Shown: in pieces, positions 16,201 to 35,783 of the stretch | How the letters are laid out: every line of letters starts with the position of its first letter | Position numbering within the stretch: position 1 is the stretch's first letter | Assembly (NCBI RefSeq): GCF_041260155.1 | Contig: NC_091928.1 | Coordinates: forward strand, 34,537,388 to 34,601,387 | Direction of reading: 5' to 3' | DNA: 64,000 nt | Source: Ptychodera flava | Lineage: Eukaryota; Hemichordata; Enteropneusta; Ptychoderidae | Position numbers and translations under genes: made by a program | The notes under the pieces: generated by a model | The model's database searches: none | Seen by the model: only the letters and a program-made list of their open reading frames with translations | What the model was told of the DNA's origin: nothing

Positions 16201-18493
16201 TGCTCCATCCACCCATCCATCAATCCACCGATCCATCAATCCACCGATCCATCAATCCACCGATCCACCAATCCACCCATCTACCAATCCATCCATTCAC
16301 CCATCCATCAATCCATCCGCCCGCCCACCCACCCACCCACCCACCCATCCATCCATCCATCCGTCCATCCACCCATCGCTCCATCCATCCATCCATACAC
16401 CCACCAACCCACCCTCCCAACCATCCGTCCATCTATCAATTCATCCATTCATCCTTCCATCCATCAATCCGTCCATTCATCCAACCACCCACCCTTGAAC
16501 CCACCCATGCACCCATCCATGCACCCACCCAGGCAGGCATAGATAGATAGATAGATAGATAGATAGATAGATAGATAGATAGATAGATAGATAGACAGAC
16601 AGACAGATAGATAGATAGATAGATAGATAGATAGATAGATAGATAGATAGATAGATACATACATACATACATACATACATACATACATACATACATACAT
16701 ACATACATACATACATACATACATACATACATACATAGATACATACATACATAGATACATAGATACATAGATACATAGATACATAGATACATAGATACAT
16801 ACATACATACATACATACATACATACATACATACATACATACATACATACATACATACATACATACATACATACATACATACATACATACATACATACAT
16901 ACATAGATACATAGATACATACATACATACATACATACATACATACATACATACATACATACATACATACATACATACATACATACATACATACATACAT
17001 ACATACATACATACATACATACATACATACATACATACATACATACATACATACATACATACATACATACATACATACATACATACATACATACATACAT
17101 ACATACGCATAGGTTCGTGAGCATTTACATACAGAATCACATACTTGATAGGTTTATACAATATGAAAATAGGAATATAGGTAAGACCAATTGTACATTT
17201 AAGGACAAATCGTGGCATTCCTCGATTGCTGTCAGCTTATTTTCCTGCCATTTCTGTTATTCTCCTTCTGCGCCCATTTTTTTTTTATTCCTGAAAGGCC
17301 ATCGTCAACAGTGGCTCTCTATTCAAGCTATTTGAAGACTTCAAGGGCAAAGCGGATTTCGTGATGGTCTATCAACCTGAATCGCATCCGAAGAATGGAT
17401 GGAGCATGGGGTCGCACTTAAGTCTTCTCGACCAACACAAGACGTTGGAAGAGAGACGAGAGGCAGCCAGGTAAGTTAGTGACGATGTGCAGTCAAAGTC
17501 ACTCGCACTTCCCGGTTAATGCTCCTACATGCCGTTGATTACGTTGTTTTATTGTACAATAAAACAAGAATAATGCGCCAGTCACATGTCTAGGACGAAA
17601 TTGTAAGATGGAAAGAAACACTAAATAGTCTTTTCTAAAAGTCACAAGTACATGTGATATTTTATCTATCAAATGCGAACAAGTATAAACACGCCTGAGG
17701 GACAGATAATCGGACTCCGAAATTTTTACAATTCTTTTCTGATCTGTCACTTGTGAGGGCTCATTGAAAACTCTCGTAGTAAGAAAATGTTTCGCCGTCT
17801 TTGTCTTTCGAAAATCGAAAATTTGATATTTTCCCATTTGGGGTTAACACAACAGTGGCGGCCATTTTAAATTCAAAACATCGATAAATCTTAGGTAATT
17901 TTGTTTTTCTTGTATCAAACTCTGCACGGTGACCCATGATTTTGGTGGGAGAATGGCTGAAGGTTTCATTGAGGAAAGATTGATCAAAAGTTTAAATCTT
18001 TCATTTTGGAGGTGCGCCACCACCTTAAAGATAGGTTGCCACTCTTAAGAGGTATTGCGAAAATCGCCCGCATCATATTACAATACTGTCATCTTCAGGT
18101 CACCGACCTTCAACCGTAGGAGGATCCTTTTCATTCTTTATATCAATTGGTATGTACATATATTGTGAACCAATTCAAAATCCAACTCTTTCGTGTGCAA
18201 CCTTTGACCTTCGCAGGCTTCTAATGGAGTTGGACACATTCCACACCTTCACAACGGATCTCGCAGACCAAACAAAAGTTCGGTTGGTACTTGACAACAT
18301 GGAGAAATCGTTCTCCTTGGAGTACGACTCATACCCTAGCCGTGCTTTCATCATCAATGAGGGCAAGGCAGCCCTGATTGGTCGGACCATCGATGACCAG
18401 ATCAAGCCACGCCAGACCAAGATACTTATGACTGATGAGCTCAGAAAGTGGTTGAAGAAGCATTGTGGCAGTTCATTGTGTACAGTTCTTTAA
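12999..18493 (+). CDS. DIO: Iodothyronine deiodinase-like selenoprotein, copy 1
   Basis: The four exons (12999-13268, 15875-16084, 17298-17470, 18217-18493) total 930 bases, 309 residues with selenocysteine. Deiodinases remove iodine from thyroid-hormone-type iodothyronines through an active-site Sec in a thioredoxin fold. The active site reads [21 protein letters not shown] 16070-16072 is residue 156 and is followed by the family's PP. The conserved active-site His is in ESHPKNGW (about residue 190), and the C-terminal [15 protein letters not shown] block is characteristic. The roughly 90-residue N-terminal exon has no hydrophobic anchor, unlike vertebrate enzymes. The protein ends LCTVL, a CaaX-like tail. 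A SECIS-type hairpin lies at 19338-19412. Ordinary gene finders would stop at the TGA. Introns 1, 2 and 3 are in phases 0, 0 and 2. Confidence 0.9.
13580..13863 (+). mobile_element. TTAA-family element, 5' end degraded
   Basis: Contains the family core (AAATCTGAGGTCACCGTGC, GAGAAACAAATTAC, AATTCAGAAAAGCC) and the right end CCTCGAGGGGCATCTTACCT. The left terminal repeat is not recognisable. It lies in intron 1 of deiodinase copy 1. Confidence 0.65.
15001..15107. repeat. Fold-back element, complete
   Basis: TTATTGCCTGAATAC at 15001-15015 is the exact inverse of 15093-15107, and the inner parts (TTTATGTGCCC / GGGCACATAAA) pair as well. The centre carries GCCCGACGCCATAG. Diverged relatives occur at 12855-12935, 31826-31922 and 52790-52850. 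Confidence 0.8.
15875..16084 (+). CDS. DIO: Deiodinase copy 1 exon 2, with selenocysteine codon
   Basis: The acceptor is TTCATACAG|GTG and the donor AGA|GTAAGT. The frame stays open on both sides of the TGA at 16070-16072; four further codons (Pro-Pro-Leu-Arg) follow before the donor. Same phase and same 12-base TGA-to-donor spacing as the other three copies. Confidence 0.88.
16070..16072 (+). other. Selenocysteine codon TGA, copy 1
   Basis: In-frame TGA at the deiodinase active site, followed by Pro-Pro and three further coding segments. Reading it as stop would remove the catalytic half of the protein. Confidence 0.88.
16160..17106. repeat. Compound tetranucleotide array: (CATC/CACC)n, (GATA)n, (CATA)n
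   Basis: About 950 bases in intron 2 of deiodinase copy 1: degenerate CATC/CACC repeats to about 16530, GATA/GACA repeats to about 16655, then CATA repeats with GATA islands to 17106. Long reading frames across it (for example 260 residues of Met-Tyr-Val-Cys) are artefacts. Confidence 0.97.
17298..17470 (+). CDS. DIO: Deiodinase copy 1 exon 3
   Basis: The acceptor is CTGAAAG|GCC and the donor CCAG|GTAAGT; 173 bases as in all copies. It encodes the thioredoxin-fold strand [14 protein letters not shown] with the conserved active-site His, then [15 protein letters not shown], matching the family helix that ends at an Arg split by a phase-2 intron. Confidence 0.88.
17690..18028 (-). mobile_element. 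TTAA-family element, reverse orientation
   Basis: Reverse copy in intron 3 of deiodinase copy 1, running from GCCTGAGGGACAGATAATC to GGTGCGCCACCACCTTAA. The left TTAA end is degraded. A 112-codon reverse reading frame across it is spurious. Confidence 0.72.
18217..18493 (+). CDS. DIO: Deiodinase copy 1 exon 4 and stop
   Basis: The acceptor is CTTCGCAG|GC. It encodes ...[20 protein letters not shown], the [15 protein letters not shown] block and the end CGSSLCTVL, then TAA. The Cys four residues from the end and the final Leu form a CaaX-like tail. Confidence 0.88.
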
Positions 18494-19337
18494 ATACGCA
18501 ATGAGTTGTCATAATACGTCCATTTACCTAACATTTCGACTTTAAAATTCCTCTTTTAATTTCGTCTCTGAAATGTTTCGGTATTTTGCGAATGAATATG
18601 CTGAAGGTTCTTGTTTCACTGTTGAATTATGCAAAAGATGTTCCCAAAAGACTGCTTATAACTGAACCAGTCAAAGTAGAGTCTGTTAAACGGAGCAACT
18701 GAATTAGTTGTTATAATTTGTTTTGATGTCAAATTGGCACAACAGCTGTAATTTTTCACATTTTCGTTATCTGTGTTCTCTGATCATGAGCCAGTACAAT
18801 TTCCTTTTCTTTCTGTACTACGATGAAATGCTGCACAAAATAACAATCGCAGAACATTGCGCTCAATATCCAAGATTATTTAGACTGATGAACCATAGCC
18901 AAGAGTAAATTTCGATGGCTGGCATAATTTGAAATAATTTTTACACATGGACAGACCGCGATAACTAGTTAAACATGAAGTTGTTAACCATCCTTTGTAG
19001 GAAAAGAACGAGACCTATATTTTGCAAACAGACGTTATAAACGTGTTTGAAATACAACATCCCAAAAGTTACCGCTACTGAAGCTTTCTCGACAGACATA
19101 TGATTAAAAAGTTGTTCGTGGACTTGAGCGGCTACGAGACTGAAAAGAACCGGCTACGTGAAAAAGTTACATGAACAGTTGTTTTTAAAACTCCACTAGA
19201 CTTAGTGTACATTCCTTCTCTCTAAAATGAACAGGATGTTTTCTATGACTGACATTGGTAGAACATTTATCGTTTTAGACTACTGGTGTAGTGGATTACT
19301 TTGCATTTTCACGAGAACATGGACGATTGTGGATTTC

Positions 19338-19412
19338 TCAAAGTCCCCTTGACGACAGCCGATTTAAACCATGTCACCATGGAAACGGCTGTCTGAGTTT
19401 ATATGACTTTTA
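19338..19412 (+). ncRNA. SECIS element of deiodinase copy 1
   Basis: About 850 bases after the stop codon. The core is TTGAC (19349-19353) facing CTGAG (TGA 19394-19396); helix II pairs GACAGCCG with CGGCTGTC; an unpaired AAA follows, capped by a short stem CCATG/CATGG, giving a form-2 layout. Below the quartet AAAGTC pairs with GACTTT. The base before UGA is U rather than the usual A or G, the only such case among the four copies. Confidence 0.82.
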
Positions 19413-34908: not shown

Positions 34909-35406
34909 TTACCCAGACTGCTCTGCGGGGCTCTCATCCAGGCCACCCCTATCTGCAGAAATAAAATCTGCGCGCCATGGCCAAGTGAGCACAATAGCGA
35001 TGCATCATGGGGGCGCACAATCTATGAAACAATTAGTATTTTTCGAGACAAAGTAACGGGAAATATAGCTTCAACATGTTCAAGGGAATGTTGAAATGGC
35101 TTTTAAAGTCTACCTTAGTAATGAGTGTCAACTATAACTTTTATATCCTGGGTCAGTTGTATCATACTTGTCCATAAACGATCCGAGCTATAAAAGTCAT
35201 CGTTCATAATCATTACTAAGGTAGGACCTCGAAATCCACTTCTGAGTAACCTTGTCTCAAAAACATAATATACCACAGATCAGCTGCTCTGAGGATGCAT
35301 CGCTCATGTAAGTATCGCGTCCCTAGAGCTTGCACGAAAGATTTTTGGATAGGATCTCCCTAAACTGTAGGGGCTGGATGAGAGTCCCTAGGAGCAGTCT
35401 GGGTAA
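34909..35406. mobile_element. 498 bp inverted-repeat element in the copy 4 3' UTR
   Basis: TTACCCAGACTGCTC at 34909 is the exact inverse of the right end at 35406, and GGCTCTCATCCAG / CTGGATGAGAG, AGCGATGCATC and CTACCTTAGTAATG pair further in. TCG flanks both sides and could be a 3 bp target duplication. It separates the copy 4 stop codon from its SECIS. No coding capacity. Confidence 0.75.
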
Positions 35407-35503
35407 TCGGGACGGTACATGCAGTTTTTGATGTAGATGTTTCTCACAAGTGTGTGCATGAATCGCACGCCAGCCACGACTGAGCCTTGCATTGCGTCGA
35501 TGA

Positions 35504-35783
35504 CTATACTATTGAGCAAGAACGGGAGGTTTTAAAGTGGCGCCCGAGCCAGCGTCTAAGTTCGTCCGTCATCAGTGTATTGACTTCAGAGGGCTGCACT
35601 TGCTGGCTGATCGTCCTCCCAACAAACGCTATTTTGCCGTCCTTGAAGATGAACGCCCGGTCGGGAACGCTTTCGTAGAGCAAACTGAAGTCGTCGTTCA
35701 TGTTGTCAATCACCATGCGGACACGGCTGTCGTCTTTTATGTCAGTGGTGAATGTCTTGTGGTTGTCAAGTTCCATCATTGTT
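35504..35783 (-). CDS. DIO: Deiodinase copy 4 exon 4 and stop
   Basis: 280 bases, one codon longer than in the other copies. The acceptor on the reverse strand is CTTTCGTTAG|AA, and it ends in TAG. It encodes [20 protein letters not shown], the [15 protein letters not shown] block and the SCSIV tail. Confidence 0.88.

Follow-up and report, generated by a model that had tools for sequence, protein, structure and literature searches.

Four clustered iodothyronine deiodinase-family genes of the hemichordate Ptychodera flava encode proteins with a CaaX-type C-terminus and no evident N-terminal membrane helix

The location of an iodothyronine deiodinase decides which hormone pool is acted on. In the vertebrate enzymes DIO1-3 (PF00837; PDB 4tr3, 9h48), a catalytic domain with a selenocysteine (Sec) codon and a selenocysteine insertion sequence (SECIS) is preceded by an N-terminal helix. 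In the deiodinases of non-vertebrate chordates the transmembrane, hinge and linker regions are apparently absent, as described in PMC8699336, where some of the sequences are N-terminally incomplete. The mollusc Mytilus coruscus has two deiodinases with Sec and SECIS, McDx and McDy, of 258 and 242 amino acids (PMC8481496). Here we describe a cluster of four deiodinase-family genes in a 64,000-nucleotide stretch of DNA from the hemichordate Ptychodera flava (NC_091928.1, positions 34,537,388 to 34,601,387, forward strand; the whole stretch is called the window). Their products are like the vertebrate enzymes in the catalytic domain and in the Sec codon with its SECIS-like hairpin, and like McDx and McDy in having Sec and SECIS. 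Unlike the vertebrate enzymes they show no N-terminal helix and carry a CaaX-type end, a possible signal for attachment of a lipid, and unlike the mollusc enzymes they are 309 amino acids long.

A tblastn search with the exon sequences, together with a reading of the splice sites, gave four sets of four exons, which correspond to four complete genes of 309 codons each that run from 12999 to 41207 (Table 1). The first-pass annotation of this DNA had given the extent as 18484..35515, which lies inside the cluster but takes in only part of it. Copies 1-3 are on the plus strand and copy 4 is on the minus strand, with copies 3 and 4 standing tail to tail. All 12 introns begin with GT and end with AG, the donor of intron 1 of copy 1 (GTTCAT) being unusual, and the TGA at the Sec site is the sole internal stop of each joined frame. 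Over the whole protein, copy 4 shares only 50% identity with copy 3; its exon 4 has a one-residue insertion relative to the other copies.

All four copies matched the PF00837 profile, at 83.2-97.8 bits against a curated cut-off of 27. Among solved structures, the copy 3 protein or the four-copy profile matched only the type III (4tr3, 4tr4) and type II (9h48) deiodinases at E up to 1. Every copy contains a single in-frame TGA, located at the catalytic site (SSLSUPP), and our own scan found a SECIS-like hairpin 665-856 nt 3' of the stop codon in 4/4 copies. The hairpins of copies 1-3 are conserved and alike, and that of copy 4 is more diverged. In an Rfam scan at E up to 10, SECIS_1 was listed for copy 4 only (24.7 bits, E 1), below the gathering score of 35. 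Judged from their sequences, the four genes are Sec-dependent enzymes of the iodothyronine deiodinase family. Copy 2 ends in a TGA (25829-25831) that sits in the same message as its SECIS-like hairpin (26605-26652); if this codon is read as Sec, about 20 more residues follow to a TAA, as read by eye, and the CaaX-type end is buried.

The four proteins share the ending C-[ST]-[IV]-[LV]-stop. The first-pass annotation had reported the ends CTVL, CSIL, CSVL and CSIV for copies 1-4, with the Cys at -4 and the terminal Leu or Val kept while the preceding residues drift, and the four joined frames bear this out. Cys306 (copy 3 numbering) is invariant and is the sole Cys common to the four copies, copy 4 having no other, while only one of the eight residues (Ser304) is invariant in the linker between Leu297 and Cys306. 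The position of the stop is fixed, with three different stop codons in use (TAA, TGA and TAG). At the nucleotide level, the difference to copy 3 was lower in the last four codons than in the linker for copy 1 (0.17 vs 0.50) and copy 4 (0.50 vs 0.67, with one codon of the copy 4 linker dropped for alignment), but hardly lower for copy 2 (0.25 vs 0.29).

We compared this pattern with a crude neutral model (equal rates, a star tree from copy 3 and the divergence of the linker) in which the null is pure neutrality. A CaaX-type end plus stop was kept in all three other copies in 0 of 40,000 trials. When the stop was held, the probability that the three other copies keep C-x-[ILVM]-[LVIMF] was about 5e-5, and that of keeping the Cys alone was 5e-3. 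Within the terms of this model, the result shows that the C-terminal tail is under constraint; it speaks to constraint, and not to its cause or to prenylation.

What, then, might the constraint serve? We lean slightly towards reading the C-terminal end as a CaaX box for protein geranylgeranyltransferase I (GGTase-I), which would make it a lipid anchor. Such a signal is the best explanation because it alone accounts for the constrained Cys, a2 and X. GGTase-I reads chiefly a2 and X and accepts Caa[L/F/I/M/V] (PMC11304957). Its consensus (Cys at -4, aliphatic a2, and L, F, I, M or V as X) is satisfied in 4/4 copies, in agreement with the earlier suggestion that CaaL and CaaV ends fit this enzyme. 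In yeast, CTVL, which is the box of copy 1, and CAIV, which shares its last two residues with the copy 4 box CSIV, both emerged from a Rho1 growth screen, and each caused a strong shift of Ydj1 on gels; neither conferred Ydj1 thermotolerance, the result that the authors had anticipated for ends that undergo full processing (PMC11304957). For the related end CTIL, complete modification by human GGTase-I in yeast has been reported (PMC11152559), and in OAS1 this end is both necessary and sufficient for geranylgeranylation (PMC8357416).

A lipid-bearing redox protein has also been described. MIEN1, which has a thioredoxin-like fold, is geranylgeranylated at its CVIL end (PMC6738349). It is like the window copies in its fold and in its CaaX end of the GGTase-I type, but it belongs to another family, has 115 amino acids, and carries a tail (ITNSRPPCVIL) that is more polar ahead of the Cys. 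OAS1 p46, with its geranylgeranylated CTIL, and the prostacyclin receptor IP, whose CSLC is both prenylated and a PDZ ligand, are unrelated proteins that have the tail logic alone in common with the copies described here. If the four deiodinases are modified in the same manner, cytosolic GGTase-I would attach a geranylgeranyl group to Cys306, Rce1 would cut off the last three residues, and ICMT would methylate the new end. The enzyme would then probably sit on the cytosolic face of endomembranes or of the plasma membrane, where the lipid tail would do the job of the vertebrate N-terminal helix, with a possible effect on activity.

Several points weigh against prenylation, some of which concern the residues ahead of the box. 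The linker considered by the predictor PrePS covers 11 residues that are small and hydrophilic, with Ser or Lys favoured before the Cys, and the helices in solved GTPases start beyond the linker at -12 to -15 (PMC1175975). In the window copies only 8-9 residues separate the Cys from the conserved DELRKWL (ending at Leu297), a helix placed by alignment to Dio3 rather than predicted. In copies 2 and 3 the 11 residues ahead of the Cys include four aromatics and one Lys, and a Trp stands at -1; copies 1 and 4 are more basic. Other points concern the box itself. The a1 residue is Ser or Thr in 4/4 boxes, and for CSIM, modification in yeast by human GGTase-I reached only about half (PMC11152559). 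The X residue of copy 4 is Val; the Arabidopsis enzyme takes only Leu as X, so copy 4 would be excluded if the animal enzyme were as strict, the authors describing the plant enzyme as stricter than the metazoan and yeast enzymes (PMC3017772). CSIL, CSVL and CSIV were not found in the main text of either PMC11304957 or PMC11152559. A construct in which CTIL was joined to the common part of OAS1 appeared cytosolic and nuclear (PMC8357416), and a CaaX box alone may be insufficient for membranes. Finally, the terminal TGA of copy 2 could be partly read through, in an mRNA that recodes another TGA.

The tails can also be read as class I PDZ ligands ([S/T]-x-hydrophobic-COOH), through which soluble deiodinases would be attached to scaffold proteins; we regard this reading, which the first-pass annotation does not mention, as distinctly improbable. 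Class I ligands have Ser or Thr at -2 and a hydrophobic residue at position 0, a pattern seen in 4/4 copies, with Ser or Thr as the third-last residue and Leu or Val as the last. Binding to a PDZ domain would, however, leave the invariant Cys and the restriction of the second-last position to Ile or Val unexplained, and in the neutral model with the stop held the PDZ end was less surprising than the CaaX end (6e-3 vs 5e-5). The CSLC end of the prostacyclin receptor is both farnesylated and a ligand of PDZ1; in vitro, PDZ1 did not bind this end after farnesylation and processing, while earlier cell work by the same authors suggested that receptor and PDZ1 bind irrespective of prenylation (PMC3566133). 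The two uses could also be combined, the tail being PDZ-bound while unprenylated and membrane-bound once prenylated.

The catalytic domain provides the evidence that bears on another role for Cys306. The Glu and His around EAHPSDGW, plus a later QH, are as in DIO1-3. In our own reading of the alignment the invariant E188 and H207 of the four copies fall on Glu156 and His174 of DIO1, which have been discussed as a proton relay (PMC9141512). The residue at Sec+2 is Pro, like that of Dio2 and Dio3 as described in PMC11592359. The window copies differ from DIO1-3 in about 12 additional residues ahead of the VLD strand, and their N-terminal 115 or so residues were unmatched to Dio3 and Dio2 in the profile search. 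The position of the proximal Cys124 of DIO1, two before Sec, is occupied by Leu154 and that of the distal Cys194 by Val239 in 4/4 copies. The proximal residue is Cys in DIO1 and DIO3 and Ala in DIO2. According to this alignment, the window deiodinases are without both conserved vertebrate redox cysteines.

Because both cysteines are absent, an alternative already raised in the first-pass annotation gains in plausibility, namely that Cys306, the one Cys that the copies share, is a resolving thiol that reduces oxidised Sec in place of the lost active-site cysteines. C-terminal cysteines act as resolving thiols in some peroxiredoxins. In DIO1, reduction by glutathione requires Cys124, which pairs with position 126 in a disulfide (PMC9141512). 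However, the same source reports that DIO2 has Ala for the proximal Cys and that mutation of the distal Cys of DIO1 showed no catalytic role (PMC9141512); therefore a replacement thiol is not required. A resolving thiol would also not predict an aliphatic end of exactly three residues with a fixed stop, and we consider this role of Cys306 improbable.

We saw no transmembrane helix in the four copies: the highest 19-residue Kyte-Doolittle mean was 0.64-0.99 in the first 92 residues and 1.02-1.26 over the whole protein. The net charge of the first 92 residues was -13, -6, -7 and +1 in copies 1-4. A helix encoded by a hidden upstream exon was considered; a comparison of the copy 2 interval (18494-25831) with the copy 3 interval (25832-32289) by blastn and tblastx showed no conserved upstream coding exon. 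Of the six blastn matches, four were the coding exons; the other two were the SECIS stretch and a piece of 37 nt. With tblastx, the SECIS stretch was the only match 5' of exon 1. The similarity of the two first exons starts 3 bases 5' of the ATG with blastn and 12 with tblastx. In a control, planted pieces of copy 2 exons were found in 36/40 cases at 45 nt and in 40/40 each at 60, 90 and 120 nt; these pieces were as conserved as the known exons, and a faster-changing exon could be missed.

Comparison of the four upstream regions by tblastx gave matches in two pairs only: copies 2 and 3, at the SECIS stretch, and copies 1 and 4, at a dispersed repeat. Upstream ATG frames with a segment mean of at least 1.6 numbered 2, 1, 1 and 0 for copies 1-4, and these frames were not alike. 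Copies 1 and 3 have an in-frame stop within 10 codons 5' of the ATG, and in copies 2 and 4 a simple acceptor scan, which is not decisive alone, shows a fair candidate acceptor AG, with an open frame, 10 bases 5' of the ATG. A conserved helix exon upstream is unlikely, and a fast-changing or distant one is possible. The earlier claim that these proteins have no N-terminal membrane anchor agrees with the low hydropathy (maximum 1.26) and with the upstream comparison, and the accompanying statement that exon 1 is charged throughout describes copies 1-3 fairly but copy 4 only loosely.

An absent helix is not new in itself, because the non-vertebrate chordate deiodinases apparently have no helix, hinge or linker (PMC8699336), and the N-terminal helix may be a vertebrate gain. 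The first-pass annotation had proposed that the anchor moved to the C-terminus, which implies an ancestor with a helix; given the apparently helix-free enzymes of non-vertebrate chordates as described in PMC8699336, such a move is unproven.

The same chordate enzymes fit the reading in which the window deiodinases are soluble, their tail being kept for packing or by recent paralogue ancestry and any targeting coming from the N-terminal region. That region occupies the place of the helix and linker in vertebrates, and dimerisation may be its main function. It contains amphipathic stretches (residues 1-116, moments 0.48-0.62), and the authors of PMC11592359 conclude that the transmembrane region is not crucial for catalysis. 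Yet at the protein level the adjoining linker has drifted much further than the last four residues, and in the crude neutral model common descent was seldom enough by itself to keep the pattern in copy 4. We regard soluble enzymes with such a tail as unlikely.

Taken together, these data partly support the first-pass annotation: the observation at the C-terminus is real, and on sequence grounds the prenylation reading is reasonable and plausible as a hypothesis. More tentatively, and with less than even confidence, we suggest that in one lineage of animal deiodinases a C-terminal geranylgeranyl group takes the place of the N-terminal helix in membrane attachment, which would make them prenylated selenoenzymes. 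Since the tail before prenylation has the form of a PDZ ligand as well, lipid attachment could in that case move each enzyme from a scaffold to a membrane and thereby determine where hormone is activated or destroyed. If true, a lipid-anchored deiodinase without a helix would suggest that the family keeps membrane attachment and not the helix itself, and a soluble N-terminus could ease expression and crystallisation of the full-length enzyme.

In titles and abstract openings of the papers listed on deiodinases with prenylation or CAAX, and on prenylated CAAX selenoproteins, a prenylated deiodinase was not found. Relatives were also sought in viral (IMG/VR) and prokaryotic (GTDB) collections, at places matching one of two short peptide patterns. 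Of the pattern hits, 0/338 and 0/243 were confirmed, respectively, and with the core alignment the figures were 0/344 and 0/270.

Table 1. Deiodinase genes of the window and their features (positions of the window; fold z is relative to dinucleotide shuffles)
Feature	Position	Strand	Details
Copy 1	12999..18493; exons 12999-13268, 15875-16084, 17298-17470, 18217-18493	+	309 aa; stop TAA; PF00837 E 2.3e-23
Copy 2	21377..25831; exons 21377-21652, 23609-23812, 24456-24628, 25555-25831	+	309 aa; stop TGA; PF00837 E 7.7e-28
Copy 3	28959..32289; exons 28959-29231, 30163-30369, 30838-31010, 32013-32289	+	309 aa; stop TAA; PF00837 E 1.6e-24; PDB 4tr3 E 5.8e-14
Copy 4	35504..41207; exons 41207-40935, 39971-39768, 36350-36178, 35783-35504	-	309 aa; stop TAG; PF00837 E 1.5e-27
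Exon 1 of copy 3	28959..29231	+	91 aa; first coding exon; no transmembrane helix; no Pfam match at curated cut-off
Sec codon TGA, copy 1	16070..16072	+	SSLSUPP; tblastn, splice reading
Sec codon TGA, copy 2	23798..23800	+	tblastn, joined frame
Sec codon TGA, copy 3	30355..30357	+	tblastn, joined frame
Sec codon TGA, copy 4	39780..39782	-	tblastn, splice reading, joined frame
Box CTVL, copy 1	18479..18490 (with stop to 18493)	+	then TAA; joined frame
Box CSIL, copy 2	25817..25828 (with stop to 25831)	+	then TGA; joined frame
Box CSVL, copy 3	32275..32286 (with stop to 32289)	+	then TAA; joined frame
Box CSIV, copy 4	35507..35518 (with stop from 35504)	-	then TAG; joined frame
SECIS-like hairpin, copy 1	19350..19397	+	856 nt past stop; TGAC...TGAG core; best of 4 candidates in 2.5 kb; fold z -5.40
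SECIS-like hairpin, copy 2	26605..26652	+	773 nt past stop; best of 8 candidates; fold z -4.23
SECIS-like hairpin, copy 3	33129..33176	+	839 nt past stop; best of 9 candidates; fold z -2.84, 3/200 shuffles as good
SECIS-like hairpin, copy 4	34793..34838	-	665 nt past stop; best of 10 candidates; core 3' side CGAG or GAGAG, not TGAG; fold z -3.95

Other parts of the window were also inspected. Three open frames (1226-1510, 6962-7381 and 7571-8098), which we took to resemble histamine N-methyltransferase-like methyltransferases, had no Pfam match at E 0.01 to support this, and likewise five other flank or intergenic frames had none. Long simple-sequence arrays lie within deiodinase introns at 16436-17236 and 23886-24434; mir-297 matches in the former were below the Rfam gathering score and look like low complexity. 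Two pieces 5' of copy 1 (11612-11646 and 11732-11765) are collinear with two pieces 5' of copy 2 (20565-20599 and 20666-20699). These are 34-35 nt long and 80-82% identical, with no tblastx match and no other match in the window, and are possibly regulatory. Two sequences of about 360 nt that are 81% identical stand in inverted orientation 5' of copies 1 and 4 (10860-11213 and 45145-45504). They belong to a dispersed repeat, for which the window gave 13 matches; identity was 70-100% among the 12 listed.

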